DNA of 55,579 bases from IMG/VR virus record IMGVR_UViG_3300035523_000006, positions 1 through 55,579 of that record; one strand, 5' to 3'. The stretch comes from a virus. Shown here in pieces: positions 1 to 55,579 of this stretch (the stretch's first letter is position 1; every line of letters begins with the position of its first letter). The notes under the pieces are model-generated. The model was not told where the DNA came from. It made no database searches and was given only the letters and a program-made list of their open reading frames with translations. The translations under genes and the position numbers were made by a program.

Positions 1-620
1 CCGCCCTTGGCCTTGCCCATCACGTCCTTGAAGTAGTCGTGGATCTGGTGCGCTCCCATCGGCCTCGGCCACTCGCCAGAGCCCCGGCAGTGGTCGCACG
101 TCGTTTCGATCTTGTGCCCCCACCGCAGTACCTTGCCGTGCCCATCGCATACAGAGCACTTTGGAGCGAGGAAATGGAACAGAGCCGGGCTGAGTAAGTC
201 CACGTCCACGCCGACCCGCTGGGCCCACTCGGTCAGCAACCCAAGGACCAGCGAACGCCCGCGCAGCACCATCGCCCGCTCGCGCATTTCCCGCGCGTGC
301 CAAGCAATCGCCTCAGCCCGTGCCCGCTTCATGTCCGGCCGCCCGCGCTTGTCCGGCAGTTCCTTGGCGCGAGCCTCGATGAAAGCCTCGGAGCGCTTGG
401 CGGGCTTGTCTGCGCGATCCCACTCCCCGCGAATGGCGATCAGGGCGAATCCGAGCTGGTGCCGTCCACCGCAAGCGGCCATGCCGGAAGCGATGATTAC
501 GTCAGCGGCGCGGTTCGGGTGGCCCTCGGGGACCATCCCGCCGACAACTGTCATGTCTGACGTGTGCAGCGCCATCGAATACGACTCGTCTATCGTTCTC
601 GGTTCCGTCGCAGTTGCCAT
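1..620 (-). CDS. Q-like late antiterminator, 5' part (continues at 55579)
   Basis: The ATG at 620 follows a clear ribosome site (GGAGGG). The frame stays open to base 1, and if the ends are joined it continues through 55579-55525 to give 224 residues. Two CxxC pairs (CSVC and CDHC, near residues 158-185) form a DnaJ-like zinc finger as in some lambdoid Q proteins. The gene is last in the leftward early operon and is followed by candidate late promoters with terminators, the classic Q position. It would load onto RNA polymerase at the late promoter and let it read through into head, tail and lysis genes. The role is inferred from motif and position. Confidence 0.6.
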   Translation of the reverse strand, partial: MATATEPRTIDESYSMALHTSDMTVVGGMVPEGHPNRAADVIIASGMAACGGRHQLGFALIAIRGEWDRADKPAKRSEAFIEARAKELPDKRGRPDMKRARAEAIAWHAREMRERAMVLRGRSLVLGLLTEWAQRVGVDVDLLSPALFHFLAPKCSVCDGHGKVLRWGHKIETTCDHCRGSGEWPRPMGAHQIHDYFKDVMGKAKG

Positions 621-652: not shown

Positions 653-904
653 TTAGTCGCCCTTCTTAAACCATCCCGCAGGCTCGGTAGTCCGCCCCTT
701 GTACGCGAGCCCAAGCTGCCGCAAGCCTTGCTCCATGGCGGCGATGTCGCATTGCAGCCGCTCAATGTCGCTCACCCGGTTATCGTTCTTCCACTTCACC
801 AGCTCGCGCAAATCGGCGACCGCCTTGCGCAGCCCGAGAGCCGCAGCGAGCGCGCAGGCCGACGCGAATCCAATGGCCCCGATTGCTATCCAAGTTGCAT
901 CCAT
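653..904 (-). CDS. small N-terminally membrane-anchored protein
   Basis: 83 residues from ATG 904, with AGGAGG just upstream. Residues 4-25 form one hydrophobic segment, followed by a charged, probably coiled helix (LRELVKWKNDN...) that suggests a cytoplasmic or periplasmic coiled coil on a membrane anchor. It lies between a tiny membrane gene and the Q-like gene in the leftward early operon. The family is not recognised and the function is unknown. Confidence 0.6.
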   Translation of the reverse strand: MDATWIAIGAIGFASACALAAALGLRKAVADLRELVKWKNDNRVSDIERLQCDIAAMEQGLRQLGLAYKGRTTEPAGWFKKGD

Positions 905-930
905 CTCGCCTCCTATGCGCTCACGCGCGG

Positions 931-1053
931 TTAGTTCGCCATCCACCGAAACAGCGCCAAAGCAAGCGCCGCATAGACCCAGCGCGGGCGGTCAGTAGCC
1001 AGCGCCCAAGCCGCAAAAATCAGCCAAGCATCGCAGCCGGTCAGCGGGCTCAT
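931..1053 (-). CDS. small membrane protein (40 aa)
   Basis: ATG 1053 overlaps the previous stop in an ATGA, so translation is coupled. The 40-residue product has two hydrophobic stretches around a short polar turn, including a GCDAWLIFAAWAL segment. Small proteins of this look are frequent in phage early operons. No function can be assigned. Confidence 0.5.
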   Translation of the reverse strand: MSPLTGCDAWLIFAAWALATDRPRWVYAALALALFRWMAN

Positions 1054-1130
1054 CTCTGCCCCCGGCAAGCCGCCAGCGTTGCCGCATGGGCGCGCTCGGA
1101 GTCGAATTCCTGCGCTGCGTCCGTCTTCAT
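1050..1130 (-). CDS. tiny coupled ORF (26 aa)
   Basis: 26 codons from ATG 1130. It overlaps the stop of the HNH gene (ATGA at 1130-1127), and its own TGA overlaps the next ATG. The double coupling is the main support. The sequence (acidic start, one Cys) matches no known family. Confidence 0.4.
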   Translation of the reverse strand: MKTDAAQEFDSERAHAATLAACRGQR

Positions 1131-2203
1131 AGAAGAAACCCTTTTTGCTGCATGTAGTCCACCGGATGTTTGGCGCCTTTCTGCTGATTGCAGCGCGCCC
1201 TCAACAACTGCACGTTAGCGTCGATATTCCTACCGCCAAGCGCCAACGGAACAATGTGATCTAGATGGAAGTCCCGACCAAGCGGCCGACCGCAGCAAGC
1301 GCATTTGCCGCGCTGAAGTTTCTGCAGCCGCTCCAGAATCCCGCGAGATAGTCGGTCGGCCCCAATCAGCCTCCTGCGCTTTCTGTCTTTCAGACGCAGA
1401 TACTCCTTGTTTCGCCTTGCCCATGCTCTTTTGTAGGAGCGATTCTTTTCTGCGTTTTCTTTGATCCACGAAACTCTGGCCGCCCTAGCTCGTTCGGTAT
1501 TTGCTGCGTACCACTCCCGGCTATAGCGGCGGCGTTCCTCCGCCGATCTTTGGTAGCGGTCACGTCGGTATTGACTTAGGTGGTTTCTATTGGCAGCGAC
1601 CCAAGCCTGCCTAGCAGCAACGTAGCCATCTGACCTCCGAACCGCCGCCTCGCACGCCTTGCAACGCCCCCCAGCAATAACCGCTCCGCATCTTCCGCAG
1701 ATGGTCATGGTTATCACTAGCCACGGCGATTTACTCGGACCTGGACCTGCGGAATAGATCGAAGTAGGCCGCGTGCCGTAGTGAGCCAGCACCCCCACGC
1801 GGTGGATCAGACCTCGTCCGGCGGCATTCAGCATCGCCTTTGATACTTGCGCCCACGATTTGCCAGCAAACTGCGGGAGCAAATCATCTGCGGTAGCCTT
1901 TCCAAATTCGCAAACCAACGCTGCGATCTTTTCCTGCTCGCACCATGGTTTGGTCTTGATGATTCCGCCAAGAGGAGGCTTTCCAGCAGAATAGACGGCG
2001 GCAGGACTCCGCCCATCGCGCATCTCGCCGCTCGATCTATGCGCGAGCCCCGACCTCGCCAGCCCGCGCAACGCAGTAGCGATCTGCGCCCTCGAAAATA
2101 CCGCCATGCGCGCCGCAAGACCATCCGCCGTTGATGGGCCGTGCGTCTCCAGCAAGGAGAGCGCGACACTTCTTGCGCTTGTATTTTGCCTCTCAAAACC
2201 CAT
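1127..2203 (-). CDS. tandem winged-helix protein with C-terminal HNH nuclease
   Basis: 358 residues. Residues about 8-75 and 90-150 are two related winged-helix-like repeats, both ending in a YSAG motif. There follows a short CGRCG...CKAC zinc site (about 170-185), a long basic region rich in Arg, Tyr and Glu, and a C-terminal HNH module (CACCGRPL, then FHLDHIVPLALGG and a ...RCNQQKG tail, about 297-345). HNH enzymes of this type cut DNA and are often homing endonucleases. The gene sits in the early operon beside another winged-helix gene (2410-2676). It may be a fusion of a resident regulator with an invading HNH module. Confidence 0.7.
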   Translation of the reverse strand: MGFERQNTSARSVALSLLETHGPSTADGLAARMAVFSRAQIATALRGLARSGLAHRSSGEMRDGRSPAAVYSAGKPPLGGIIKTKPWCEQEKIAALVCEFGKATADDLLPQFAGKSWAQVSKAMLNAAGRGLIHRVGVLAHYGTRPTSIYSAGPGPSKSPWLVITMTICGRCGAVIAGGRCKACEAAVRRSDGYVAARQAWVAANRNHLSQYRRDRYQRSAEERRRYSREWYAANTERARAARVSWIKENAEKNRSYKRAWARRNKEYLRLKDRKRRRLIGADRLSRGILERLQKLQRGKCACCGRPLGRDFHLDHIVPLALGGRNIDANVQLLRARCNQQKGAKHPVDYMQQKGFLL

Positions 2204-2676: not shown

Positions 2677-2876
2677 GTCTTCCCCCATACGTCTTCCAGG
2701 CGCACCGGACGGCTCTCGCTCAGCTTCTGGTCGATCAGGTCGCGCAGGAACTTGCTGCCGCCCATCTCGCGCACCTTCTCTGCCTGCTCTTTGGTCACGC
2801 GGGCGTGAATCCATGCGGGCATCCCGGCTTCGTTGATCGGCGGGCGCCCTGTGGGCTTCGTCTTGAATTGCCTCAT
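2673..2876 (-). CDS. probable ribbon-helix-helix protein
   Basis: 67 residues from ATG 2876, coupled to the Ref-like gene by ATGA. The stretch PAWIHARVTKEQAEKVREM followed by GGSKFLRDLID looks like a beta strand plus two helices, as in Arc/MetJ-type dimeric DNA-binding proteins. This would fit an early regulator. The assignment rests on pattern alone. Confidence 0.5.
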   Translation of the reverse strand: MRQFKTKPTGRPPINEAGMPAWIHARVTKEQAEKVREMGGSKFLRDLIDQKLSESRPVRLEDVWGKT

Positions 2877-3163
2877 GCCTCTACCCCCTTCAACAGCGTC
2901 ATTGCGTCCAGCAGGAGATCGGCCTGAGTGAAGCCGTACCGCTTGACGAATCCTTTTGTTCCGAGTCCGTGAACCCCGGTAGCGCCGCGATGGTGCTCAA
3001 CGCATAGCGGGATCAGGGTTTCGTATCCGCCTTTGCCCCAGCCGCCCGCCCGCAGGTGATGCAGCTCCACGGGGCCTGGTTCGTGCGGCCCGTACATGCG
3101 ACGGCACAGGACGCAGCCAAGCTCCGCGAGTGCTGTCTTGTGGGCGTGTTCGGCTTTGGTCAT
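2873..3163 (-). CDS. Ref/HNHc-type nuclease
   Basis: 96 residues from ATG 3163, coupled to NinB by ATGA. It carries CVLC, then VELHHLRAGG and PLCVEHHRG with a closing glycine-rich GVHGLGTKGF stretch. This is the arrangement of the small HNH family that includes phage P1 Ref, a RecA-dependent nuclease. Location directly after NinB is typical of nin-region recombination genes. It probably helps recombination or branch processing of phage DNA. Confidence 0.7.
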   Translation of the reverse strand: MTKAEHAHKTALAELGCVLCRRMYGPHEPGPVELHHLRAGGWGKGGYETLIPLCVEHHRGATGVHGLGTKGFVKRYGFTQADLLLDAMTLLKGVEA

Positions 3164-3570
3164 GCCGCCCGCCTCTCGTCTTCCGGGTACACGACAACGC
3201 CCTCTTCAATCGCTGCCGCGTGAAGCCATTCCAGCCAGTCGGAAAACTCGCCCTTGCCGAACTTGCTGGTGCGCTGGCCTAGCAGAATCATTCGCCCACG
3301 GAAGTTCGCAACCCGCGCCATCTCGTCACGGAAAGCGCCGGTAAGCACGTCCTTCCACTCTTCGTCGCTGACGTACTCCATGCGCCCGTTGACGCAAAGC
3401 TGCTTCTGCTTGGCGAAGGCGTCCAGAATCGGCCATTGCGCCGCGTTCTGCTCCAGAGTGCGGGTAGGCTCACCCACCGTCACCACGTAGCCGTGTGGGG
3501 CCGTCCTGACCGCTTCCAGCGCCCTTCCGCGTGACTGCGGGTGGTTGCCAACGACGAAGGTCTGTCTCAT
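3160..3570 (-). CDS. ninB: NinB-like recombination protein
   Basis: 136 residues from ATG 3570, coupled to the upstream small gene by ATGA. The core (NGRMEYVSDEEWKDVLTGAF, then the RGRMILLGQRTS and GEFSDWLEWLHA stretches) is the pattern of NinB (Orf), the lambda single-strand-binding recombination mediator that replaces RecFOR function. It lies in a nin-like block with a Ref-like nuclease and ends 2 kb before the Q-like gene, as in lambdoid phages. Confidence 0.85.
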   Translation of the reverse strand: MRQTFVVGNHPQSRGRALEAVRTAPHGYVVTVGEPTRTLEQNAAQWPILDAFAKQKQLCVNGRMEYVSDEEWKDVLTGAFRDEMARVANFRGRMILLGQRTSKFGKGEFSDWLEWLHAAAIEEGVVVYPEDERRAA

Positions 3571-3722
3571 GCCAGCCCCTTCCCGCCTTCCAGCGCCACC
3601 CGAAACAGCTTCGTTTCCATCAGAGCCTTGGCCTTTGCAGCGTTCCCGCGCGCAAGATCCAGGGCGAGCTTTACCAGGGCGTCTACCTCGCGGGGGATGA
3701 CGCGGTGCTTGCGTGTTCTCAA
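3567..3722 (-). CDS. small hypothetical protein (51 aa)
   Basis: The best start is TTG 3722, which overlaps the previous TGA (TTGA) and has GGAGG about nine bases upstream. The product is basic and helical, with LVKLALDLARGNAAKAKALMETKLF forming one amphipathic helix. No family is recognised. It is coupled to ninB. Confidence 0.5.
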   Translation of the reverse strand: MRTRKHRVIPREVDALVKLALDLARGNAAKAKALMETKLFRVALEGGKGLA

Positions 3723-4024
3723 AATGACGGGCCTCCGACGAAAGCCCGCACGAACCCGTCCCACAGCCGCGCAGCACGCGAGAGCAGAGAGTCGGCGGGA
3801 ATGTCTCGCGCTACTTCGGCAAGGATCAAGTCCTCACCGCCATACACGCGGTGCTGGTGCTGGATCACGCGCCCGTCAGCCAGCAGCCGAAACCATGCCG
3901 CCCTGCGCTGCGGGATAGCGTCAAGCCATGCGCGCGATAGGCGTTCGCTGATGCCGATCTCGGCGAGAACTTCAGTCTCCCGGCCGGCGCGGCTTCTGTA
4001 GTCGATTGGGGATTGGTGCGTCAT
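3719..4024 (-). CDS. hypothetical protein (101 aa)
   Basis: ATG 4024 overlaps the methyltransferase stop (ATGA). The product is soluble and charged, with a predicted helix-rich N-terminus and a [15 protein letters not shown] segment. Nothing recognisable. Nin-region context suggests an early accessory role. Confidence 0.55.
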
Positions 4025-4770
4025 GCGGCCTCCAATCCAAGTTGTTGCGGGGCTTTTGCTGGCTCTGCGACGAACAGCGGACGCTGCTTGTATGCCTGCT
4101 CAATTCGCCTGCACGCAATGTCAAAGTGCTTGCGATCGCGCTCGATTCCCTGAAAGCCGCGCCCCTGGAGGACGGCCGCGACTCCGGTCGTTCCGCTTCC
4201 CATGAACGGGTCGAGAATGACTTGGCCCGGCTCCGTGAAGTCGCTTACAAAGGCCGATAGGAGCCCAAGAGGCTTCTGCGTCGGGATCTCGCCTCGTCCT
4301 TCCACAGGGAACGTCCAAACACCAGCCCCGCCACCACGATTCCACTTTTTTGTGACGGCGGCGGAGTGCATGATCAGCACGGTTTCAAACCCTTGTCCGG
4401 GCCGGTCGCCGCTGATTTGCGGCATGGGGTTCGGCTTGACCCAAGCCCCAAGTCGAACAAAGTTCAGGTGCTCGTAGAACAGCGCGGCATGCTTGTAATC
4501 GCAGGTAGCAATCACCCACTCATAGCAGGCCCCGAGGCACAGCCGCATTGCCGTTACGAACTCTTCGCCAGAAATCGAATCGAACAGCTTGACCCGTGCG
4601 CCGCCTTGAACGCCAGCCGTCGCCTTGTTTGTGCGCATCATCGAATGCGTGTTGGCCGAGTACGGTGGGTCTGTGATGACGTGATCGACCTCCGGCCAAC
4701 CGTTCTCCATGAGGTCGAACATGCTTCCGTGGTACAGCGTGCAGTCTCCGATTTGCGCTGAATCGATCAC
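4021..4770 (-). CDS. DNA methyltransferase (DPPY class, beta type)
   Basis: The start chosen is GTG 4770, preceded by AAAGGAG at the right distance; upstream codons in this frame belong to another gene. The 249 residues hold the catalytic DPPY motif (about residue 34) and, late in the chain, the SAM-binding [10 protein letters not shown] motif (about 195), the order of beta-class N6-adenine/N4-cytosine enzymes. No cognate restriction gene is present, so it is an orphan. It may protect phage DNA from host restriction or alter regulation. Target sequence unknown. Confidence 0.85.
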
Positions 4771-4910
4771 TTCTTCTCCTTTGGCTTGTGCGCGGCACAC
4801 CGAAAGCCGTTCTTCGTAGTTCCGCCCTTGCTCGGCTTCCAGTCGCAGCACAGCAGGCACCACTTCTGGCTTGGCGACCTCTGCAAAATCTGGCGGTGCG
4901 TGTCGGTCAT
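4767..4910 (-). CDS. small cysteine-rich protein (47 aa)
   Basis: ATG 4910 overlaps the previous stop in ATGA, and its TGA overlaps the methyltransferase GTG. The product has WCLLCC and, later, a single RCAAH, a plausible zinc-binding knuckle, and a Lys-rich tail (KPKEKK). It lies between two methylase reading frames and may be an accessory factor. Function unknown. Confidence 0.55.
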
Positions 4911-5047
4911 GCGGCTTCCGATTCGTCAGGCTCCAGCACGAAACAGGCGATGTGCCGGCCGGTTCCTTTACCCTGAGAGCCGTCCTCAGTCGCAAGCCAC
5001 CGCACATCCCCGAGGTTGCGCACCTTCGCGCCGGCCGCGAGCAGCAT
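4907..5047 (-). CDS. C-terminal piece of split Dam-type methylase
   Basis: 46 residues from ATG 5047. The start codon shares bases with the stop of the preceding ORF (TGATG), which makes a -1 step. The sequence ([18 protein letters not shown], then [13 protein letters not shown]) looks like the natural continuation of the phage N6-adenine methylase just upstream. It may be made as a coupled second subunit, by frameshifting, or be a broken end. Its stop overlaps the next ATG. Confidence 0.5.
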
Positions 5048-5407: not shown

Positions 5408-5524
5408 TCATGCTTTGAGCCAATCGAAGTAAGCCTCGCTCGGCGTGAAGCCAAGTCCCATAACTCGCCTGCCGCGCGCGAAGCAGTGCCAGACTCCGTG
5501 AAACAGGAAGATGCGCGGCTTCAT
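5408..5524 (-). CDS. small protein (38 aa)
   Basis: ATG 5524 overlaps the HNH gene stop (ATGA). The product has a GVWHCFARGRRVMGLG core and an aromatic FDWLKA end, the pattern of short phage proteins that carry one beta hairpin and a helix. No family assigned. The tight coupling is the main support. Confidence 0.5.
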   Translation of the reverse strand: MKPRIFLFHGVWHCFARGRRVMGLGFTPSEAYFDWLKA

Positions 5525-6171
5525 GCGAGCGCCCCGATCACGCGCAGGCGAGGAGCACCGACAGGCGTTGTTAACGCACGCTCTTGGCTCCATCCGTAAA
5601 TCAACCTTGCGCTTATCACGCGCAGCGGTATTCCGGTCCGCTCAGACCAGACAGACAACGTAAGCCGGGCGCCGTTCCATTCGATGAGCTTGTTGCTGCT
5701 CTTGTTGTTTTGCTGCTCCCTTACCGTCACCCATCGGACATTTCCCGGTTCGTAGTCGCCGTCGTTGTTGATTCGGTCAAGCTGCAATCCTGGTCGATAG
5801 CCCTCGCCCATGTCCTTAACAAAGGCGTCAAAACTCGCCTCCCATCGCTCGCAGACTCGTATCCCGCGCTTGCCGTACCTATCAAACCGCTTGTTCTTTG
5901 GGTTTGAGCAGCGCTGACGCATCGATGACCAAATGTGGTGCAGAGGATGACGCGACATGCCGTGAGTGCTGGCGCGGCGCTGCGTTGTCTCCGTCCTCAA
6001 ACACCCGCAAGAGCGCGACCAGCCGGAAATCAATTTATCCTGCAATACTGGTTTTACCGTCCCGCATTCGCAGCGACAGATCCAGCGCCGTTTTTTGCCG
6101 TTCGTAGGGGCTAGCTCAATTACGGTCCAGCGCGAATCCGCTGGAAGCCTCATTTCCGGATGCGGTCTCAT
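5521..6171 (-). CDS. HNH/AP2-type phage endonuclease
   Basis: The start is ATG 6171, overlapping the VRR-NUC stop. Of 216 residues, about 22-60 hold a CRCEC...SCGC zinc motif, about 75-140 the IWSSMRQRC, then LQLDRINNDGDYEPGNVRWVT core of HNH-like phage enzymes with an AP2-type DNA-binding region, and the C-terminus a helix-turn-helix-like WSERTGIP segment. Proteins of this class are usually free-standing homing endonucleases. It sits in frame-coupled company, so it is at least translated with its neighbours. Confidence 0.7.
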   Translation of the reverse strand: MRPHPEMRLPADSRWTVIELAPTNGKKRRWICRCECGTVKPVLQDKLISGWSRSCGCLRTETTQRRASTHGMSRHPLHHIWSSMRQRCSNPKNKRFDRYGKRGIRVCERWEASFDAFVKDMGEGYRPGLQLDRINNDGDYEPGNVRWVTVREQQNNKSSNKLIEWNGARLTLSVWSERTGIPLRVISARLIYGWSQERALTTPVGAPRLRVIGALA

Positions 6172-6452
6172 TTGATGATTCCTAGAACTCTCAGCGCTTC
6201 GTCCGGCGTGCGAACCACGTAGACGGGGGCCTGCCATGCGATGTGCCAGCGCTTCTGCAACTCATTCGGCTCGGCCTTGCCCGTCTTCAGCTCCATCAGG
6301 TACAGCCGCACGTCCGGCCGCGTGCCGTAGGCGACCAAAATGTCCGGGCAACCTTTTCCGATTGCCGCGAGGCTCTGCACGCGAGCGCCCGCAGCCTTCA
6401 GCGCGGACACAATCTGCTCCTGCACGGCATCGACCTTTGCGGCCCTACGCAT
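6168..6452 (-). CDS. VRR-NUC domain nuclease
   Basis: 94 residues from ATG 6452. The chain is almost only the nuclease core: a KGCPDILVAYG motif, then LYLMELKTGKAEP carrying the E-x-K active-site residues, then QKRWHIAWQAPVYVVRT. This is the stand-alone VRR-NUC (PD-(D/E)XK) fold common in phages, thought to be a structure-specific nuclease for replication or recombination intermediates. It overlaps both neighbours by a few bases. Confidence 0.85.
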   Translation of the reverse strand: MRRAAKVDAVQEQIVSALKAAGARVQSLAAIGKGCPDILVAYGTRPDVRLYLMELKTGKAEPNELQKRWHIAWQAPVYVVRTPDEALRVLGIIK

Positions 6453-6648
6453 TGCGCGCCTCTCGCTTGTGGGCCAGCCGCTCAGGGCATGGCGTCTCTT
6501 TCGGCGCTTCCATCCACTCGACGCCCGGCTCGCCAGCGATGTAGTCGGCAACACCCTGCGAGCGGCGAAAGCAGTTGAAGCACTCCTGCGGTACGGGCTC
6601 GCCTGGATTGCGGCCGGCGCAGCGCTTGACAGACAGCGGCAGGCTCAT
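6445..6648 (-). CDS. small hypothetical protein (67 aa)
   Basis: ATG 6648 is coupled to the upstream stop (ATGA), and the 3' end overlaps the VRR-NUC start by eight bases. It has CFNCF near residue 23 and another Cys near 54, possibly metal-binding. No family recognised. Confidence 0.5.
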   Translation of the reverse strand: MSLPLSVKRCAGRNPGEPVPQECFNCFRRSQGVADYIAGEPGVEWMEAPKETPCPERLAHKREARNA

Positions 6649-7533: not shown

Positions 7534-7709
7534 TGATACCCTCCTGTGCGCTGAGTGGCGTTGCCCCACCGAATGCGGTATGCCCCCGTTCTTCCGGTGA
7601 GCCAGAACCGCACTTGCAGCCATGCGCTGAACAGGCGACCTCTCCCAAACTCGCGAGCGCGGTGGTATGCGCTTGTGCTGAAACGCACAGCGTTGATGCG
7701 GTACGTCAT
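7530..7709 (-). CDS. small basic protein (59 aa)
   Basis: ATG 7709 overlaps the replication-gene stop (ATGA), and the stop overlaps the next ATG. The product is rich in Arg and Tyr, with a WLQVRFWLTGR hydrophobic-basic stretch. It fills what would otherwise be a 170-base gap in the operon. Function unknown. Confidence 0.55.
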   Translation of the reverse strand: MTYRINAVRFSTSAYHRAREFGRGRLFSAWLQVRFWLTGRTGAYRIRWGNATQRTGGYQ

Positions 7710-8458
7710 CGCTGATCCTTTGCGGCTCGTTCAAGCCAGTTGCTCCACGATTGCCGCCAGCCCTTGACAGAGCGGCGCTTGCCCTGCCCCTTGCCAGCGG
7801 TCCAGTACTGCCGGAACTTCTCGGATTGGTAGAGCACCTGCGATGGCTTCCAACCGAGGGCTTCGGCATCAACGCCCCAGTCCTCCGGAAGCTCCCAGTC
7901 CCCGGCGATTTGCACGATGGCCTTGCCGTTCAGGGACTGCGCGTTCTTTCCGTTGAAGTCGGGCGGGGGCGACGGGGCCGCGCGTTGCGCGGGGCCGTCA
8001 ACCTCTCCGTTAGGAGAGGTATTGGAATCAGGAAGGGGGAATCCGGAATCCGGAATCAGCCCGGATGGTTCGGTGCCGGGTTGTTCTGCCTTACCGGCGG
8101 GCTTACTTTCTTGTCTGGTACTTGCACCGGGCCGGTCTGGTGCTTGTATGGTGCTTTCGGTTTCCTTGACGTGTGGGTTTTGGTGCTTGTCCCAATTCAC
8201 GATCTGGATCGCGGCCACGTTCCCAGCTTGGTAGCGCTGGACGAACCCTGCCTGATGCAGCTCCTGCAACATCACGTTGATGTCGCAATCGTCATAGGGC
8301 AGCACTTCAGCCTTGATCCGTTTGGGCCTGTCCTCTAGCCGGCCAGCACGGTCGGCTACGGTCCACAGGCCGATGAACAGCAAGCGCGCGAGCGGCGCCA
8401 ACTCGGCGATTCCGTCATGCGTGAAGAAGCCCGGTTTGATGTTTCTTGCGCGCGCCAT
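7706..8458 (-). CDS. O-like replication initiator / replisome organizer
   Basis: 250 residues from ATG 8458. Residues 1-105 are a helix-turn-helix domain (IKPGFFTHDGIAELAPLARLLFIGLW, then a winged part ending IVNWDKHQNPH), typical of phage replisome organizers. Residues 106-165 are a Pro/Ser/Gly-rich linker. The C-terminal part (WKPSQVLYQSEKFRQYWTAG) resembles helicase-loader or DnaT-like segments. The linker DNA contains repeats and a palindrome like an origin, as in lambda O. No helicase or loader is seen elsewhere, so host DnaB is probably recruited. Confidence 0.7.
   Translation of the reverse strand: MARARNIKPGFFTHDGIAELAPLARLLFIGLWTVADRAGRLEDRPKRIKAEVLPYDDCDINVMLQELHQAGFVQRYQAGNVAAIQIVNWDKHQNPHVKETESTIQAPDRPGASTRQESKPAGKAEQPGTEPSGLIPDSGFPLPDSNTSPNGEVDGPAQRAAPSPPPDFNGKNAQSLNGKAIVQIAGDWELPEDWGVDAEALGWKPSQVLYQSEKFRQYWTAGKGQGKRRSVKGWRQSWSNWLERAAKDQR
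8001..8057. other. candidate replication origin (palindrome plus iterons)
   Basis: Inside the linker of the O-like gene lies a perfect inverted repeat, ACCTCTCC-GTTA-GGAGAGGT (8001-8020). It is followed by GGAATC repeats at 8024, 8038, 8045 and 8052, the last three spaced every seven bases. The lambda origin is likewise a cluster of repeats within its initiator gene. Function is inferred. The repeats could instead be a by-product of the repetitive Pro/Ser linker. Confidence 0.4.
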
Positions 8459-9223: not shown

Positions 9224-9419
9224 GGCCCAGCCTTTCAGCGGCAAGCCGCCCTTGCGCCTGGAAGTAATTAGCGCCGTCGTCCAGATCGCTGCCGCCGAGT
9301 CTGCTGGCGCCTACATCGGGAAACGCTTTACGCTGATACGTCACAGCGTCTTGCGGTGGTGTGATGGAATCTGCCGGGATACCGACCGTGATGTTTTCGG
9401 CCGAAGAAAGAGCGCTCAT
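9213..9419 (-). CDS. hypothetical protein (68 aa)
   Basis: ATG 9419 overlaps the preceding TGA (ATGA); the 3' end overlaps the HNH start by eleven bases. Low-complexity, polar, probably unstructured. No family recognised. Confidence 0.45.
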   Translation of the reverse strand: MSALSSAENITVGIPADSITPPQDAVTYQRKAFPDVGASRLGGSDLDDGANYFQAQGRLAAERLGRGD

Positions 9420-10936: not shown

Positions 10937-11194
10937 TCAGGCGCCTTGCTTGTCGCCAGCGCGGCGGCGCTTGCCGTTGTCTGGCTTGGCTTTTTTGGGA
11001 TGCGGACTGGCCTTCGGAAGCACCTTCAGCCTTGCCTTCAACGCGCCCTTTGTCAGCAGCTCAATCTGGACCTGCCGCAAGTACGGTGGCTCGTCTTGCC
11101 ATTGGGTCTGGTAGAGGGCGGGGACGGTGACGCCGAGAGCTTTCGCCAACGCCGCTTTGCCTCCGAAGTAGTCGATTGCAGCTTGGGTCTTCAC
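10937..11194 (-). CDS. Cro-like repressor
   Basis: 85 residues from GTG 11194. The core KTQAAIDYFGGKAALAKALGVTVPALYQ is the YdaS/Cro-type helix-turn-helix, followed by basic C-terminal residues rich in Lys and Arg. The gene is first in the leftward operon and diverges from the repressor over 62 bases, the normal place for Cro. It would bind the operator at 11224-11239 and shut off repressor synthesis in lytic growth. The ribosome site is weak. Confidence 0.8.
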   Translation of the reverse strand: MKTQAAIDYFGGKAALAKALGVTVPALYQTQWQDEPPYLRQVQIELLTKGALKARLKVLPKASPHPKKAKPDNGKRRRAGDKQGA

Positions 11195-11204
11195 GAGTGA
11201 GACT

Positions 11205-11239
11205 TTACCACGCTCAACTTAGCCGGGTAAATATACCCG
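11205..11239 (+). promoter_or_regulatory. repressor promoter with palindromic operator
   Basis: A perfect palindrome CGGGTA-AATA-TACCCG lies at 11224-11239 between the divergent Cro-like and repressor genes. On the plus strand TTTACC (11205-11210) and TAAATA (11228-11233), 17 bases apart, make a fair sigma-70 promoter whose -10 overlaps the palindrome, so a protein bound there would block it. The leftward promoter must overlap the same region but is less clear. Confidence 0.5.
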
Positions 11240-11256
11240 ACGGTCTAATAGGGGTT

Positions 11257-11700
11257 ATGCTCCTGAAGGACCGTGTTCTTGAGGCGATAGACAAGTCGGA
11301 GAAGACGAAGGCCGAAATCGCCCGCGCCTGCAGCGTCACGAACGCTGCTGTCACCCATTGGATTTCCGGCGACACCAAGAACATGAAGGCCGACACGGCG
11401 CTGGCGCTGGAAGAGGCTACCGGCTACCGCGCACGATGGATCTTGTACGGCAAGGGCACCAAGAAGGTAGGGGCGCCCTATTGGCCCTTCACGCAGGAAC
11501 TGCTCGATGCCGTCAAGAAGCTCGAAAGCACCGACCTAGATAGGTTGGAAAACGCCATGCGCCTGCACCTGCGCCTAGAACTTCTTGAGAAGGAACAGCC
11601 GCAGAAACTCGACCGTCGCAACGATCCGCGCATCTCAGAAAACTTACGCGGCTCTGACAGCAAGCCAGCGCCAGCAACCAAAGGTGTTAGGGGAAACTAA
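11257..11700 (+). CDS. phage repressor, XRE type, without peptidase domain
   Basis: 147 residues; ATG 11257 is the first codon after the operator. Residues 2-55 form an XRE helix-turn-helix (KAEIARACSVTNAAVTHWISG). A short linker, WILYGKGTKK, is followed by a helical, charged tail. There is no S24/LexA-like domain, so RecA-stimulated self-cleavage is not expected. It would maintain lysogeny by binding the divergent operator. It heads a short rightward operon ended by the terminator at 12411. Confidence 0.75.
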   Translation: MLLKDRVLEAIDKSEKTKAEIARACSVTNAAVTHWISGDTKNMKADTALALEEATGYRARWILYGKGTKKVGAPYWPFTQELLDAVKKLESTDLDRLENAMRLHLRLELLEKEQPQKLDRRNDPRISENLRGSDSKPAPATKGVRGN

Positions 11701-22786: not shown

Positions 22787-23061
22787 AAACCGAACTTGCC
22801 CTCTTACTGGTTCACGCCGGCCCAGTCATACCCGCCGCCGCGATAGCGGAAATGATGCGGATCACCGAGCGCACCCTTGAGAATCGCATCTACGCCAAGG
22901 AGTGCCCGATCCCGATGTTCAAGATCGGGAACAAGTGGGCGGCCCACGTTTCCGACGTGGCCTGCTACATCGACGCTCAGCGCGCGGTCGCTCAGGCCGA
23001 TGTGGACGCTGCGAACGGGGCTGCTATGACAGTGCTACAGACGGCCCGGAAAGCCGCATGA
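22783..23061 (+). CDS. PrtN/excisionase-like DNA-binding protein
   Basis: 92 residues from ATG 22783 (ATGA overlap). TELALLLVHAGPVIPAAAIAE, MMRITERTLENRIYA and FKIGNKWAAHVSDVACYID follow the pattern of the pyocin-activator PrtN family, a winged-helix fold. Position next to integrase suits a directionality factor or a prophage regulator. Confidence 0.6.
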   Translation: MKTELALLLVHAGPVIPAAAIAEMMRITERTLENRIYAKECPIPMFKIGNKWAAHVSDVACYIDAQRAVAQADVDAANGAAMTVLQTARKAA

Positions 23062-23228
23062 ACTCTCACAATTGCGCCCAATCCATCATGGGTGCAGTGG
23101 ACATGCGCCACCTGTCGGGAGGAATACCGTTCACTTATAAATCAATGGGTTTGCCGCTTCAGGGCTGCATAAATAGCCAGTATTGGCCACGTCTGTACAC
23201 TCTGCCATTGCTACAGGAGTGCTACGGC

Positions 23229-24230
23229 ATGGCGTCCATCATCCAGATCGGCGGGAAGTGGCGGGCTCAGGTTCGCCGCAAAGGGTTCCCGTACCGTACC
23301 GCAACATTTCCGACCAAGATTCTCGCCGAGAAGTGGGGGCGGCAGGTAGAGCAGGAAATCGACAGCGGGCGGGCCGGGCAGCTCGCGCCCAGTCATGTCA
23401 CCGTAGGCAACCTGATCGAGCGCTACATCGAGGAAATCGGCAGGGTCAAGCCGTTCGGGAAGAACAAGGGGGCCACGCTCAAGCTGATCGACAAGCACCT
23501 CGGCAAGCTGTCGGTGAACGCGCTGACGGCGGAACGGCTGGTGGAGTACATCACCGAGGACCGCCAGATCACGGGCGTGACGGCGGCTATCGACCTGACC
23601 TACATCAAAGGCGTCCTGAAGGTCGCCAGAGCCTTGTGGAAGGTCGGCGTCGTGCCCGGAGTGGTGGAGGATGCCCGCGAGATCCTGAAGTACATGGGGA
23701 TGGCGAACCGCTCCAACGAACGGGACCGCCGGCCGACTGCCGACGAACTGACGAAGTTGCGGGGATGGTTTGCCGAGCGCTCGGAAACGCTCACCGTGGA
23801 TCACATCGATTTCATTCTGGCTTCGTGCTTCCGCCCACCGAGCGAGGTCTGCCGCCTGCGCTGGGAAGACCTGAACGAGCAGGACAAGACGATCCTGATC
23901 CGCGACCGGAAAGACCCGCGCCGCAAGATCGGAAACAACCAGACGGTGCCGCTGCTGCACGGCAGTTTCGACATCATCCAGCGCCAGCCGAAGGGCGGGG
24001 AACTGATCTTCCCGGTGAACGGCAAGAGTTGGAGCAGCCTGTTCCCGCGTGCCTGCGCTGACCTGGGCATCGTGGACTTGACCCTGTACGACCTGCGGCA
24101 TGAGGCGATCAGCCGCCTTGTGGAGTCTGGCAAGTACAGCATCCCGGAAATGATGCTCGTGACAGGCCACAAAGACCCGAAGCAGTTGATGCGGTACACG
24201 CAGCTCAAGGCGCGGGATCTGCACCGATGA
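23229..24230 (+). CDS. int: tyrosine recombinase (phage integrase)
   Basis: 333 residues; ATG 23229 has AGGAG upstream. Residues 1-60 are an arm-binding-like domain, 60-165 a SAM-like core-binding domain, and 170-330 the catalytic domain. Catalytic residues seen: Arg in SCFRPPSEVCRLRW, Lys in RKIGNNQTVPL, Arg-His in LYDLRHEAISRL, His in VTGHKDPKQ, and Tyr in MRYTQL. The box II position usually occupied by His (HxxR) is Tyr. It would integrate and excise the genome. attP is not identified; the 167-base gap upstream is a candidate. Confidence 0.9.
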   Translation: MASIIQIGGKWRAQVRRKGFPYRTATFPTKILAEKWGRQVEQEIDSGRAGQLAPSHVTVGNLIERYIEEIGRVKPFGKNKGATLKLIDKHLGKLSVNALTAERLVEYITEDRQITGVTAAIDLTYIKGVLKVARALWKVGVVPGVVEDAREILKYMGMANRSNERDRRPTADELTKLRGWFAERSETLTVDHIDFILASCFRPPSEVCRLRWEDLNEQDKTILIRDRKDPRRKIGNNQTVPLLHGSFDIIQRQPKGGELIFPVNGKSWSSLFPRACADLGIVDLTLYDLRHEAISRLVESGKYSIPEMMLVTGHKDPKQLMRYTQLKARDLHR

Positions 24231-44951: not shown

Positions 44952-46196
44952 TCAGTTCGTCAGACGAGTGGCCCACGCCGGGCGGAACGTCTTGAAGCCG
45001 TAGATAACGTCGAGACGGACCAGCAGTTCGTCGTTGCGGATGTCCGAGGCCATCCACACGCGCATGGACAGGCCGTCCAACTTGCGCACCACGCACTTGG
45101 CGGCGTCGTCCATGATCGGCAGGTCGGCCGTCACGAACGCGAACGCGTCGCGGTGGTACATCAGGTTCTGGCGGTACGCCGTGGAGGCGGAACCGACTGC
45201 CGTCAGCGTCTGCGAGTTGAAGTCGGTCGTCGCCAGTTGCGCGCCGGCAGCGCTGCAGACGTTCTGCTTGGCGCCGGTGAGGTACGTCGCCGGGCTGATC
45301 GTCATGTCGCCGCCAGAACCCGTGCCGGCGGTGTTCGTGAACTGCTGCAGGTAGCCCAGCGACTGCTTCGTTTCCGGGTGGCAGGCGTAGACACCAGCGA
45401 TGGTGAACACCTGGCCGACCGTGTACGTCACAGGCGATGCGGTGTCAGCCGACAGGGTAGTGCCGCCATCCGTCACGCCGGCCGCCGCGTCGGTCGTGCC
45501 GGTCACGTCCGAGCCGTTGGTCATCGTCCAGCAGCGCTCGTTCTCGTAGAAGTCGGCCATCGCCGAACGGCCGTAGAAGCCCTCGGTGAACGCCTTCTTG
45601 ACTTGCGAGTCCGGGTAGAACAGCGCCTTGTTGGCGTTCACGATGTTCGCCATCGTGATTGAGTCCAACTGAATCGAGCGGTTGGCATCCTTCGGGGCCA
45701 GACCCTGATTCAGACGAGCGCGAGCTAGGCCGAGCGCCGTGGTATCACCAGACGTGCCAATGGCGGTGCCGGCGGTGCCGACGAGGTTGTACGTCTCCTT
45801 GGTCGCCGTGGTTAGGCAGTCGCCGTCGATGCCCGACACCAGAACCGACATGGCCGGCTCGATGTAGCGCTTCGAGAACGAAGCCACTTGGCTGGGGTCG
45901 TCCGTGTTCAGGAGCAACTCGGCGCTGTTGAACTTCATGTCCACGCCGTCTTGCGTGGCGAGGGTCACCGTCTGGGTGCTTTCCGCTTGGTCTTGCACGT
46001 CCATGACGCGCGAGCCCTGACGGCGGATGTATTGGTTCGGCTCGCGAACCCGCAGCGTCGATCCGACCTTTTCGCCGGCCTTGCCGAACGAATCGTCGAA
46101 CTGACGGTTGATGCTGGAGATGAAGGTCGCCTTCTCGTGTGCGATGGCGAGCCCTTCCTTGGCGATCATGTCGATCACCTTGAACGTGTTGCTCAT
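44952..46196 (-). CDS. major capsid protein (P22 coat type)
   Basis: 414 residues from ATG 46196. INRQFDDSFGKAGEKVGSTLRVREPNQYI at the start, and NDELLVRLDVIYGFKTFRPAWATRL at the end are as in P22 gp5-like HK97-fold coat proteins, close in length (430). The middle has an Ala/Gly/Thr-rich insertion domain with a CHPE loop. It would form the T=7 shell with the scaffold encoded just before it. Confidence 0.85.
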   Translation of the reverse strand: MSNTFKVIDMIAKEGLAIAHEKATFISSINRQFDDSFGKAGEKVGSTLRVREPNQYIRRQGSRVMDVQDQAESTQTVTLATQDGVDMKFNSAELLLNTDDPSQVASFSKRYIEPAMSVLVSGIDGDCLTTATKETYNLVGTAGTAIGTSGDTTALGLARARLNQGLAPKDANRSIQLDSITMANIVNANKALFYPDSQVKKAFTEGFYGRSAMADFYENERCWTMTNGSDVTGTTDAAAGVTDGGTTLSADTASPVTYTVGQVFTIAGVYACHPETKQSLGYLQQFTNTAGTGSGGDMTISPATYLTGAKQNVCSAAGAQLATTDFNSQTLTAVGSASTAYRQNLMYHRDAFAFVTADLPIMDDAAKCVVRKLDGLSMRVWMASDIRNDELLVRLDVIYGFKTFRPAWATRLTN

Positions 46197-47268: not shown

Positions 47269-47805
47269 TCAATCTTTCAGCGCCAGCGTGTCAATGCCGT
47301 TGCCGCAACCTTGGCATACAACCGAAGCGATCTCGACCGCCTTACGCGCATCGAAGCCGCAAAGCATGACCGCCATTGCGGCCTCTGAGCCGACGCCTAC
47401 TGCGTATTGCTCGTTGAGCAGTTCAATCGGGTACGGAGTGCGCTGATACAGCCGCACAGCGCCGTCCCTCGTTATCGACAGCAGGCTTGAGTGACCGTCC
47501 TTGTCGCGCTGGCTTTCCGGGAAATCGGCCACGCTCGCGCCGGCCATGAACCACAGCGCGCCGTCCATAGCCTCAACGACTGGATAGCCGCCGAACTTCT
47601 GTTTCGCGTGCTTAAAGCTCGCAGCCGTGCCCAGCAAGCGCCAGTTCTTCACGCGATGCCAGCGCACAACCTTGCCCTCGGCGTCGATGCTCGTCTCGCC
47701 CGTTGGCTCGGTGATCGGCGCGCAGCGGTACACGCGCATACGCTCGGCGCCGCAGTCGCAGCACAGCATGCCAGCGCCAGTGGAGCAGTCGAGAGCGTGT
47801 TTCAT
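47269..47805 (-). CDS. Ntn-hydrolase (HslV/proteasome)-like protein
   Basis: 178 residues from ATG 47805 (ATGA overlap with portal). The C-terminal half, SITRDGAVRLYQRTPYPIELL, then YAVGVGSEAAMAVMLCGFDARKAVEIAS and CGNGIDTL, resembles the end of proteasome-beta/HslV-like chains. The usual N-terminal Thr nucleophile is not obvious; instead there is a CCDCGAE cluster. It sits where a prohead protease often lies, between portal and scaffold. Confidence 0.5.
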   Translation of the reverse strand: MKHALDCSTGAGMLCCDCGAERMRVYRCAPITEPTGETSIDAEGKVVRWHRVKNWRLLGTAASFKHAKQKFGGYPVVEAMDGALWFMAGASVADFPESQRDKDGHSSLLSITRDGAVRLYQRTPYPIELLNEQYAVGVGSEAAMAVMLCGFDARKAVEIASVVCQGCGNGIDTLALKD

Positions 47806-50303
47806 GCGCCCATGCCGTCAGGCGGCATCGTTTGTTGACCCATCGCAGCACCTTGCATCGGCATTGCGCCCATATCGCAGCCCTCGCCCGCATCCATCGG
47901 CTCGGATTCACCAGCCGCAAGCATCTGCCCGCCCATCTCGCCGGATTCCGCGCTTTGCGGGGTCGTCGTGAGCGCTTCCTGCACCGTTTTCATCACCAGC
48001 GCCTGAATCGACACCGGATCAAGCGTCGTCCCGAGCACCTTCAGCCGCTCAGTCTCGGCGTTGTATTCGGCAACGCGCATTTCGCGCTCGGCCAACTCGT
48101 GCGCCGCAGCCTTGAACGGGTCGATTTGCTGCGGCTGCATCACTTCGGGCTTCATCACCTCCGCGCGGCGCGTTTCGGCCTCGAATTGCTTGACCTGGAC
48201 CTCTTGCGCCTTGATCTGCAGCTCGCCTTGCTTGTCCTGGACCTGCTTTGTCAGCCCGCCAATCTGCTGCTGCAACTGCCCGATAGCCTGTTTCGCCTGC
48301 GCGTCCTGCTGCTGCAGCATGTTCTGCAGGTTCTGCACCATCGGATTGATCTGCCCCGCAGCCTGCGGCGGCAACACCGCCTTGAGACGCTGCGCAACCT
48401 GCTCCGCGCCGGGCCAATCCAGATTCTTCGCGAGCAGATCGCCAATGAGCGGCGCCGACTGCGGGAAGATGCGGATGAATTCCATCATCTGCTGGCTGGC
48501 TTCCTCGCGCCTAGTCGCAAAGCCAGGACCAGCCGTCACGGTCACGTCGTATTTGCCCGTCGTGAGGTCGAAAACCTTCGTGATCTTGCGCAGGTGCTCC
48601 AGCGCTTCGGGTGGCAGTTGCGCGGTCAACTCCGGCGTGACCGGAACGTACTCGGGCGGGCCTCCGGCCTCTTCCTGCGGCTCTTGCTGCGTCGGAGCGC
48701 CCATCGGCGGCATTGGCCCTTGCATCGGTCCTTGCGGGCCTTGCGGCGGCATTCCCGGCCCCATCGGAGCCGGACCCATCGGACCCATCTGCGGGGGCAT
48801 CGGCTGCGGCATCGGCTGCTGCAGTTTGCGCACCTCCTGCGCCGGGGCAACCTCCTGATTAACCGGAACCGCGTAGGTCGTGCCGTCCTCCTGCACGCAT
48901 CGCATGATCCGCTGCGCGCTGTACACCTTCGGGATCAGATCGATGATGATCCGCCCACCGTGCTCAACAGCCCGGTTGCGGTTGTCGATGAAATCGAACG
49001 TGGCAACGTCGCTTTGCCGATCGCGCGCATTGATCGCTCGCCCGCTCGTCTCGTTTGAGCGCTGGCCGAGGCTGGCGTCGTAAATGTTCATGATCGACTT
49101 CATGTCGTCTTGAGCATTCGCCGCCTCTTGCAGCGCACCGGCCGGAACGCCGGCAAAAGGCTGGCGCTGCGGGTACATGCCTTCAGCACCCGGCACCACG
49201 TCAAACTCGATGTACTGATGCGCGACACGGTTGGCCGTCTGCCACTTCGCATGATCGGTGACGAACATCCCGACCGGGCCGACCCACGGCGCTTTCGGGC
49301 TCAGCGCAACCAGTTCCGTCGCCGAGGTGCGCCAGTAGTTGAAGTTGCGCTGCGAGTCCTTGGCGCGGCGAACAAGCGAAATGAAGTAACGCTTGCCGTT
49401 GATGTTCACTTCCTCGCCATACATCGGGACAATCGGGATGTACTTGCCGAGCCAGTCGTTTTCCTCGATTACGTCCGTGCCAGTCAAGATGCGCTGCTTG
49501 ACCTTGTGCGTTTTCGTCTCACGGTCGCCAACAATCGTAATGCCCTGCGCCGTCAGCGCCTCGGCAATCTTGACCATCTCGGCCTCAAACATCACCATGC
49601 CGTTGGACAGCTTGAAGATGCGAGCGTCTACCTTCTCGCGCGTCCAGTATTCGGCTACGCGGATGCCGTCGCCATCGAACCAGTTCTGGTCATCGTAATC
49701 ACCACCGCCGCTCTCGAAGCTCGCCGCCTTCCACTGTTTGCCAAATTTGGCCTCGAAGCTCGCCTTCCGGTACTTCTCTGTCACAAAGGCTCGGTTCCAG
49801 TCAATCGAGGTCGCTTCCTTGGACTCGTAGTCGCCGTACACGCTGAACGGGTTAGAGATGCGAGACAGGCGGATGTCCTGCTCGAATTCGTCCTCCGTCG
49901 CGTAGTCAACGTCAACGCGGAAGTACCCGAGCCCGCAGGAAACCGCGAAGTCGAACGCCGTGTCGTAAACGATGTCCGCTTGGCTCATCGTCTCGATGTT
50001 GCGCACCAGATCTGACAAGATGTTTGCCGTGTCCTTCGTCGCGCCAGAGCCGACCGGCTTGACGTTGATTGCGGGCCGGTTGATCCGGCCGTCGTTCGTG
50101 ACATGCTTGATGAAAGACGGCAGGCGGTTGATCGTCAGGCAGGGGCGCCCCTCTTCGCGGCGCTGGTCGATGTCGCGCTGGTCCCACTGCTTTTCCAGCT
50201 TGGCGAATTCGAGGTCGTCCTGAGACGCCTTGCGCTGCTCAGACTCGTTGTCTAGGCTAGCCTTGAACTCGTCGCGGGCGTCTTTGAGGGTGTCGTTTTC
50301 CAT
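47802..50303 (-). CDS. portal protein (P22-like)
   Basis: The start is ATG 50303 with GGAGAAAA; the frame is open upstream but lacks sense. The 833 residues begin with a helical, acidic part, then CLTINRLPSFIKHVTNDGR, INRPAINVKP and SNPFSVYGDYES, typical of P22-type portals. A long Pro/Met/Gln-rich stretch (about 530-580) and a Gln-rich coiled coil follow, comparable with the P22 barrel. It forms the dodecameric DNA gate. Confidence 0.85.
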   Translation of the reverse strand: MENDTLKDARDEFKASLDNESEQRKASQDDLEFAKLEKQWDQRDIDQRREEGRPCLTINRLPSFIKHVTNDGRINRPAINVKPVGSGATKDTANILSDLVRNIETMSQADIVYDTAFDFAVSCGLGYFRVDVDYATEDEFEQDIRLSRISNPFSVYGDYESKEATSIDWNRAFVTEKYRKASFEAKFGKQWKAASFESGGGDYDDQNWFDGDGIRVAEYWTREKVDARIFKLSNGMVMFEAEMVKIAEALTAQGITIVGDRETKTHKVKQRILTGTDVIEENDWLGKYIPIVPMYGEEVNINGKRYFISLVRRAKDSQRNFNYWRTSATELVALSPKAPWVGPVGMFVTDHAKWQTANRVAHQYIEFDVVPGAEGMYPQRQPFAGVPAGALQEAANAQDDMKSIMNIYDASLGQRSNETSGRAINARDRQSDVATFDFIDNRNRAVEHGGRIIIDLIPKVYSAQRIMRCVQEDGTTYAVPVNQEVAPAQEVRKLQQPMPQPMPPQMGPMGPAPMGPGMPPQGPQGPMQGPMPPMGAPTQQEPQEEAGGPPEYVPVTPELTAQLPPEALEHLRKITKVFDLTTGKYDVTVTAGPGFATRREEASQQMMEFIRIFPQSAPLIGDLLAKNLDWPGAEQVAQRLKAVLPPQAAGQINPMVQNLQNMLQQQDAQAKQAIGQLQQQIGGLTKQVQDKQGELQIKAQEVQVKQFEAETRRAEVMKPEVMQPQQIDPFKAAAHELAEREMRVAEYNAETERLKVLGTTLDPVSIQALVMKTVQEALTTTPQSAESGEMGGQMLAAGESEPMDAGEGCDMGAMPMQGAAMGQQTMPPDGMGA

Positions 50304-50340: not shown

Positions 50341-51561
50341 TTAGCCCATCCAAGAGGTTCTGACAGGCGGCGTGATCGCCCGCTTGATCGCTTTGCCGGC
50401 TCGCCTCGCTCCCTCGCAGGCATACCGCAGCGCATCAATCGTGTGGTTGTTTTTGTCTTCCAGAATTGGAATGACTACGCCAGTCAGCGGGTCGGTCTTG
50501 TAGCAATACATCGTCAGTTCGTCGATGACGTGCTGACAGCGCGGATGCACCACGATATCGAAGCTGCGAAGGAACTCGACGCCTTCCTCCAACGACTTGG
50601 CGCCCTTGATCGCCGCCGTCATCTTCGGGAAACCGTTCTTCTGCATGTGGCTGATCGTTTCAGGCCGCGCCGAGTCGGCCACAATCGGCCACTTCTCAGC
50701 CTCCGGCACCGAAAAAAACAACTCCGGCAGGTTCACGATCTCACAGCCGACGCGGTACGCCTCGTAATCGACGTACAGCCGGTTTTCCTCAATCGAGCAG
50801 CGCACCAGCACGCTCGGATCAATCGAAAAGCCCCAATCAGCACCTAGCCGGTGAATCGTGCCTTTGGGCCGCTCGAATTCCTCAATCGTCCAGTTCTTGA
50901 AGACCCGCGCCTCAGAGTTGCGCTGGTACTCGCCTAGCCAGATATGCGCGTACTTCTCCGGGTCGCGCTTCCGGTCGTACTCAAGCTCCGCTCTCAGTTC
51001 CTCGGGGAGCCATGGGTTATCGCTGTAGTTCGCCTGCACCACAACCGCGCCAGGTGGCGGGCTTTCTCCGCGCAGGAGAACGTCAATCGGATCGGTCGGC
51101 AGGTTCGGGTTCCACGAGAACCACAGTTCGGAGCCGGCCTTGCGAATCGTCGGCCGGATCAGGTCAAGGCTGCGCTGACTCAGCGACTGCGCCTCTTCCC
51201 CCCATAGAACGTCATAGCCCTCCAGCGACTTGATCGACTCGCTGGTGTGGTCCTGCAACCCCTGGAAGATGATGACGCCGCCATGAACGCTTTTAATCTT
51301 GCTATCCAGAACCTCGAAGTAGGCCCCGGCGTTCATGCTGGCGATCTTGCTGGCAAGCAGCTTCTTGACCGACTGCTCCAGCGACTTCTGAATCTCACGG
51401 GCGCAGACCGCATCGGTCTTCGCCATCACCGAGCGCTCAATCAACAGCTCGGCGAAGAAGTGCGACTTACCGGATCCACGGCCACCGTGAGCACCTTTGT
51501 AGCGCGCAGGCTCTAGCAGCGGCTCGAAGACTGCCGCCGTCTCTATCGTGAGCGCCGTCAC
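50341..51561 (-). CDS. terL: terminase large subunit
   Basis: 406 residues from GTG 51561. Walker A GGRGSGKS (residues 27-34), Walker B VLWGEE with the catalytic Glu (about 120), the coupling SWNPN motif, and an RNase H-like nuclease (LGADWGFSIDPS, then NHTIDALRYA) give a full packaging motor. The PBSX/P22-like class suggests headful packaging, matching the joined window ends. No ribosome site is seen; a small hairpin abuts the start. Confidence 0.9.
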   Translation of the reverse strand: MTALTIETAAVFEPLLEPARYKGAHGGRGSGKSHFFAELLIERSVMAKTDAVCAREIQKSLEQSVKKLLASKIASMNAGAYFEVLDSKIKSVHGGVIIFQGLQDHTSESIKSLEGYDVLWGEEAQSLSQRSLDLIRPTIRKAGSELWFSWNPNLPTDPIDVLLRGESPPPGAVVVQANYSDNPWLPEELRAELEYDRKRDPEKYAHIWLGEYQRNSEARVFKNWTIEEFERPKGTIHRLGADWGFSIDPSVLVRCSIEENRLYVDYEAYRVGCEIVNLPELFFSVPEAEKWPIVADSARPETISHMQKNGFPKMTAAIKGAKSLEEGVEFLRSFDIVVHPRCQHVIDELTMYCYKTDPLTGVVIPILEDKNNHTIDALRYACEGARRAGKAIKRAITPPVRTSWMG

Positions 51562-51664: not shown

Positions 51665-51982
51665 TCACGCCTTGACGATTCGCCGAACGATCTCAGAGAA
51701 CAGGTGTTCGCCGTTCTCGCCTGGACCGACAATCGACTGCTCCGGCTTACCCCAGCCTCGATCAAGCAGCGCATTGGCCGCTGCCACCTTGCCAGCCGCG
51801 CTGTCGGACTCCAGCACTTCAACCAGCGCCGCGACAGCAGACGCGGTGTACTGCCTTGCCAGCTCGCGGACGTGCTTTACGTCCTCGGGCAGCTTTGGTC
51901 TGCCACCCGGATTGCCGCTCTTGCCTTTCGGAAAGGACCGGCCACGCGGTTTTTTACTGCTCTCAGCGGCTTTGTTAGCCAC
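51665..51982 (-). CDS. probable terminase small subunit (DUF5681-type)
   Basis: 105 residues from GTG 51982. The N-terminal KKPRGRSFPKGKSGNPGGRPK motif is the DUF5681 signature; a helical region follows. It lies directly ahead of terL. The 103-base gap to terL shows no gene. Confidence 0.7.
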   Translation of the reverse strand: MANKAAESSKKPRGRSFPKGKSGNPGGRPKLPEDVKHVRELARQYTASAVAALVEVLESDSAAGKVAAANALLDRGWGKPEQSIVGPGENGEHLFSEIVRRIVKA

Positions 51983-55238: not shown

Positions 55239-55532
55239 CTACGCACAGGCGGCTCCCGATTCTGTTAGGAGCGCTTCGATTTCCTGCGCCAGCTTCGCTA
55301 TCTGCCGTGTCCGCTGTATCACCCCTGCCAAGCGGCTATCCGGGGCTACAGGCGCTCGCAGTGCTTCGGACGGCACATAGGAGCCAGCGTCCTCGATAAC
55401 GCGCTGTAGGCTCTTTCCGGCGTCCCATGCGCTATGCGGGCAGTCCTCCCACGGCAGCACGTCACAGCCGCAGGAACGCACCTCCGCAGGCCCTGTGCTG
55501 CCGAATGATCGGGAGTGGATGCGATCACCCAT
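55239..55532 (-). CDS. hypothetical protein after Q (97 aa)
   Basis: ATG 55532 overlaps the Q-like stop by eight bases. CGCDVLPWEDCPHSAWD near the N-terminus may bind metal; a helical C-terminus (IQRTRQIAKLAQEIEALL). Last gene of the early operon by position. Unknown. Confidence 0.55.
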   Translation of the reverse strand: MGDRIHSRSFGSTGPAEVRSCGCDVLPWEDCPHSAWDAGKSLQRVIEDAGSYVPSEALRAPVAPDSRLAGVIQRTRQIAKLAQEIEALLTESGAACA

Positions 55533-55579
55533 AGAACGCCTGCGCCGCGCCCTTCTTGGCCTGCCCGATGCAGCCCCTA
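55525..55579 (-). CDS. Q-like antiterminator, 3' part (starts at 620)
   Basis: If base 55579 is joined to base 1, the frame continues as GRGCIGQAKKGAAQAFYG and ends at TGA 55527-55525. The joined protein has a natural basic/helical C-terminus, and its stop overlaps the next ATG like most junctions in this operon. This supports the end join. Confidence 0.6.
   Translation of the reverse strand, partial: RGCIGQAKKGAAQAFYG

Follow-up and report, generated by a model that had tools for sequence, protein, structure and literature searches.

A 55,579-base virus record as the probable, essentially complete map of a P22/Sf6-like temperate phage opened inside a Q-like gene

The described systems with which the phage considered here can best be compared are Xanthomonas phage PBR31 (MT119766), Shigella phage Sf6 and Salmonella phage P22 (Lederbergvirus) and, for a single protein, the Q protein of lambda (7ubm, 4mo1). 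PBR31 is a podovirus by microscopy; the ATPase domain of its large terminase subunit (TerL) is also closest to that of Sf6, and a split between the halves of TerL similar to the one described below has been reported (PMC10975493). Phages of the Sf6 group package by headful (PMC5000459).

The window analyzed here is the entire virus record IMGVR_UViG_3300035523_000006, 55,579 bases in length. We found in it a portal and a coat protein of the P22 type, an Sf6/P22-type terminase, a repressor/Cro pair, replication and nin genes, a Q-like gene, and an integrase (Table 1), a combination of families from which the phage is very probably a temperate, lambdoid podovirus. The expected lambdoid modules are all present, and several genes of the structural region have no family match. 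With Sf6 and P22, the phage has in common the terminase ATPase, portal, coat, and Cro families, NinB, and the integrase, whereas its lysis genes follow the structural genes, as in PBR31, and the protein identity is merely distant. With PBR31, it shares TerL at the identity given in Table 1, homologous portal, coat, and metallophosphatase proteins, and the same lambdoid arrangement, in which Q precedes the terminase on one strand; the two differ in size (40 kb in PBR31 versus 55.6 kb here), their Q proteins are unrelated, and there is no match at the nucleotide level. A nucleotide search of a phage collection likewise retrieved no near relative. On the basis of module content, gene order, and the length of the protein encoded across the record ends, we consider with considerable confidence that we have in this record an essentially complete genome map, opened at an arbitrary point inside the Q-like gene, of a temperate podovirus of the lambdoid type that is related to PBR31 and has a P22/Sf6-like head.

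Table 1. Coordinates of the principal features of the window and the observations on which their labels are based
Feature	Position	Strand	Basis or remark
Q-like gene, 5' part	1..620	-	206 codons + 2 bases, cut by the left record end; frame open to base 1
Q-like gene, 3' part	55525..55579	-	18 residues + TGA; frame, codon bias, tail length, stop/start overlap
Next ORF, 97 aa	55239..55532	-	Start overlaps Q-like stop (ATGGGTGA); weak partial relatives in four viral contigs
97-aa ORF (short form, 653-904)	653..946	-	Gene call; directly upstream of the Q-like gene
HNH endonuclease, right early operon	1127..2203	-	PF14279/PF01844
Small nin-region ORF, 96 aa	2873..3163	-	HNH-like motif by eye
NinB/Orf recombination mediator	3160..3777	-	phrog_72, E 3e-17
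DNA N6/N4 methyltransferase	4021..5007	-	PF01555, E 3e-21
Replication initiation protein	7706..8458	-	phrog_16167, E 1e-52
Cro, P22 type, head of right early operon	10937..11194	-	PF14549 P22_Cro, E 3e-18
Putative prophage repressor, divergent from Cro	11197..11700	+	phrog_8/phrog_4 transcriptional repressors
Tyrosine integrase, internal to the record	23058..24230	+	phrog_1, E 2e-41; PF00589
Lysozyme	30426-31004	-	PF00959, E 2e-18
Holin	30994-31209	-	phrog_1356, E 3e-14
Major coat protein, P22 type	44952..46196	-	PF11651, E 7e-18
Portal protein, P22 type	47802..50303	-	PF16510, E 1e-171
TerL, Sf6-gp2-like ATPase	50341..51561	-	4idh (Sf6 gp2), E 6e-44; 76-77% identity to PBR31 TerL
Candidate terminase small subunit (DUF5681)	51665..51982	-	PF18932, E 5e-10; function inferred from position

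Several further genes of the window were noted. The right early region carries at least five endonuclease genes, mostly of the HNH type (1127-2203, 5521-6237, 6168-6554, 8459-9244, and 9416-9937, all on the minus strand), and these, together with the large leftward region, may account for the roughly 15 kb by which the genome exceeds those of its relatives. The leftward early operon includes a PolB-type 3'-5' exonuclease (PF10108) at 17364-18122 (+). A metallophosphatase/DNA repair exonuclease-like gene at 27450-28613 (-), 48% identical to its PBR31 counterpart, lies in the lysis-integrase interval here and in the Q-TerL interval in PBR31; it is thus a module that moved. Near the integrase, the C-terminal half of a 176-aa ORF (26098-26628, -) matches PHROGs annotated "phosphofructokinase" (phrog_474, E 1e-20). 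At 54287-54757 (-), we found a cysteine motif of the CAVHNEPAFPAGPCDCGA type that recurs, with 67 to 95% conservation across about 20 residues, in more than 40 viral contigs that differ in other respects.

The halves of TerL differ in their nearest solved relatives, which are Sf6 gp2 for the N-terminal ATPase half and the terminase nuclease 2wbn for the other, so that by this measure the protein looks chimeric. The earlier note on this DNA had called the terminase P22-like, which holds in the sense of the N-terminal match to Sf6 gp2. In PBR31, as in other relatives, a homologue of the DUF5681 protein directly precedes TerL. From the meeting of the record ends, the note had also concluded that the phage is headful packaged and circularly permuted, which does not follow. 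Both cos and headful phages replicate via circles or concatemers, and therefore a closed contig cannot tell the one from the other; a cos phage assembled from such DNA would close just as well. In that case, the circle would be real but the virion ends would be fixed and cohesive near the terminase, a reading that we regard as unlikely, given that Sf6 gp2 is the nearest match to the ATPase half of TerL, that portal and coat are of the P22 type, and that the Sf6 group, as noted above, is headful. Headful packaging is likely for the phage mapped by this record solely on account of the families to which its TerL, portal, and coat proteins belong.

The map itself depends on how the two ends of the record meet. 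From a minus-strand ATG at 620, the frame remains open down to base 1; codon 207 is completed by base 55579, and 17 further codons lead to a TGA at 55527-55525, which yields a joined protein of 224 aa to which the right end contributes 18 residues, encoded in the 55 bases down to 55525. This TGA and the ATG of the next ORF at 55532 share eight nucleotides (ATGGGTGA). Our recomputation reproduced exactly both this frame and the overlap, as described in the earlier note. Its statement that the join neither lacks nor repeats a base, in contrast, is overstated and cannot be based on the frame: a loss of any multiple of three bases would leave the frame intact, and a few codons could be absent. The codon usage of the 55-base tail favors the joined frame (+10 bits, versus -11 and -15 for the other two), a bias that would be expected as well if the right end belonged to a different gene. 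No exact terminal overlap was found at any length tested (1-199), nor any 12-mer common to both 2-kb ends in direct or inverted orientation, and a degenerate DNA pattern over the join had no match in the viral contigs searched, none of which independently spans it.

How often such a seam arises by chance was estimated by counting as comparable those joins with the same frame, coding-like sequence on both sides, and at least 150 codons. Comparable seams made up 15% of random cut-and-join pairs inside the window, 18% of the joins between mismatched ends from 52 related contigs, and 50% of truly adjacent cuts, giving a likelihood ratio of about 3 for an in-frame join. Taken alone, the in-frame join is weak evidence for closure. 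These rates leave room for a near-complete linear contig whose ends fell by luck in frame-matched minus-strand coding DNA and are separated by DNA missing from the record, such as a stretch ending in the same operon. Against such a fragment, the chance that a tail fitting the protein family and a stop placed at the next start would arise jointly is only about 1%.

The family in question was recovered by a genome search confined to a single bacterial order, the one to which a Burkholderia genome belongs; it yielded two distant relatives whose alignment, used as a query, retrieved further relatives from viral contigs and genomes. Close relatives were found neither in viral contigs nor by protein searches of phages and plasmids. 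The homologues are 183 to 236 aa long and occur in nin-type regions. Between the last CxxC and the C terminus, they have 41 to 45 residues, with 51 in a near-identical group of four and 71 in one divergent member; one further match (L186) was left out of this comparison as a DnaJ-type chance match. In the Q-like protein, this tail comprises 46 residues when joined and 28 when unjoined. Since the joined length lies within the range of 41 to 51, any missing sequence amounts to a few codons at most, unless the protein is unusual. The earlier note had proposed a comparison with the C termini of homologues, which bears out the length of the tail (46 versus 41-51) but not its sequence: the alignment to the family profile ends at residue 190, shuffled tails score equally, and the last 18 residues have no recognizable residue-level homology, a point in favor of a linear fragment. 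A structural model of one relative (mean pLDDT 68) has a terminal helix at residues 191-220, and the record cut at residue 206 falls inside the equivalent helix. The AlphaFold model of the truncated protein is poor (pLDDT 49), with only its helices being interpretable.

Independent information comes from gene order, which we examined in contiguous relatives recovered via the portal and large terminase. In the linear window, the left-end genes and the terminase are more than 40 kb apart; through the join, the former come to lie 5 to 8 kb upstream on the same strand. Homologues of the HNH gene at 1127-2203 are upstream of TerL on its strand in four of five relatives, and those of the small nin-region ORF at 2873-3163 are so placed in all four relatives with TerL on the contig. 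The same holds for NinB in one of one and for 23 of 26 methyltransferase matches, the last being weaker evidence because the domain is common. For the mobile HNH-type gene further in (5521-6237), the position upstream of TerL is not kept in relatives. The circular order in PBR31 is Q, terminase, portal, scaffold, coat, tail, lysis, integrase, leftward early genes, repressor, replication, and back to Q. Once joined, the window reproduces this circle, with repressor/Cro at 11 kb, the replication initiator at 8 kb, the methyltransferase and NinB at 3 to 5 kb, the Q-like gene over the seam, the terminase at 51 kb, structural genes to about 32 kb, holin and lysozyme at 30 to 31 kb, and the integrase at 24 kb. 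When the right-end genes served as queries, the only matches were short ones in cysteine motifs, none of them adjoining a Q-family gene.

An exact terminal repeat is the trace that an assembler leaves on a circle; it is the usual sign of closure and not a property of the molecule. We read the ends of 10 related contigs: in three, the terminal repeat is exact and 99 or 127 bases long, whereas in a further two, repeats are present but inexactly placed. The three exact cases indicate that phages of this group assemble as circles in the collection and that repeats are retained there, so that the lack of one here is a further point for a linear fragment. The window may have been trimmed, may come from an assembler that gives circles without overlap, or may formally be a linear record. 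In a related contig of 40,303 bases (ends L202/L203), some 130 bases from the start recur near the other end, not at the very tip but about 130 bases in from it, and that contig therefore continues beyond its start with a sequence that differs. With the joined protein at family length, the stop on the next start, an order through the seam like that of PBR31 and the contiguous relatives, and no expected module absent, we judge a linear fragment to be quite improbable. Thus, C-terminal length, synteny, and module content support the complete circular map that the earlier note had proposed. We also reject, as it did, a slice of host chromosome carrying a prophage as extremely improbable: although an integrase is encoded and related TerL genes occur in bacterial chromosomes, the virus record stops at both window ends, which lie at the early/late junction away from the integrase, the integrase is flanked by other genes on each side within the record, and neither a tRNA nor a recognizable host gene was seen among the proteins scanned.

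In the closed map, the split gene is situated between the nin genes and the late operon, with TerL about 4 kb downstream via the join, and reading of the neighborhoods of two relatives (L164 and L168) revealed a NinB-like gene nearby. Its family profile matches lambda Q (7ubm) with an E value of 7e-4 over 44 positions, in the zinc-finger segment only, and the single protein matches phrog_127 weakly (E 0.014). The family profile aligns the paired CxxC segment with that of lambda Q, and the two proteins are similar in size (207 aa in lambda Q and 224 aa here) and in their place after the nin genes and before the late operon, whereas the likeness is confined to about 45 residues and a fold search with the modest model of the relative matched nothing. 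The label Q given in the earlier note is hence plausible from profile and context but weakly supported by sequence, and the gene probably encodes a Q-type antiterminator. At TerL loci, we found no convincing Q-like protein with a double CxxCxGxG motif. More tentatively, it is possible that the joined gene belongs, with its relatives of about 25 to 30% identity from viral contigs and Burkholderiales prophage regions, to a zinc-finger family of Q-type late antiterminators that has not been described before, and that the phage founds a new genus-level group of enlarged (55.6-kb) PBR31-like podoviruses.

If the record is the essentially complete map that we propose, then in the native DNA, whether a circle or a concatemer, base 1 would directly follow base 55579, within a few codons at most. 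The right early operon, which comprises Cro, replication, and nin genes as well as Q, would lead directly into the late operon on the same strand, in the order terminase, portal, coat, tail, and lysis, with Q at the boundary, where it would act as a late antiterminator. The DNA inside the cell would be physically circular, and an Sf6-type terminase would package it by headful, leaving permuted virion ends. The record would then be usable as an essentially complete genome despite the lack of the terminal repeat by which pipelines spot complete virus contigs, and a seam of this kind can be tested without reads, by asking how long the homologues of the split gene are and how genes are arranged in contiguous relatives instead of relying on the frame alone. 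The phage is of the ordinary P22/Sf6-like temperate kind; its probable closure is useful to know, and its biology is not of a new kind.
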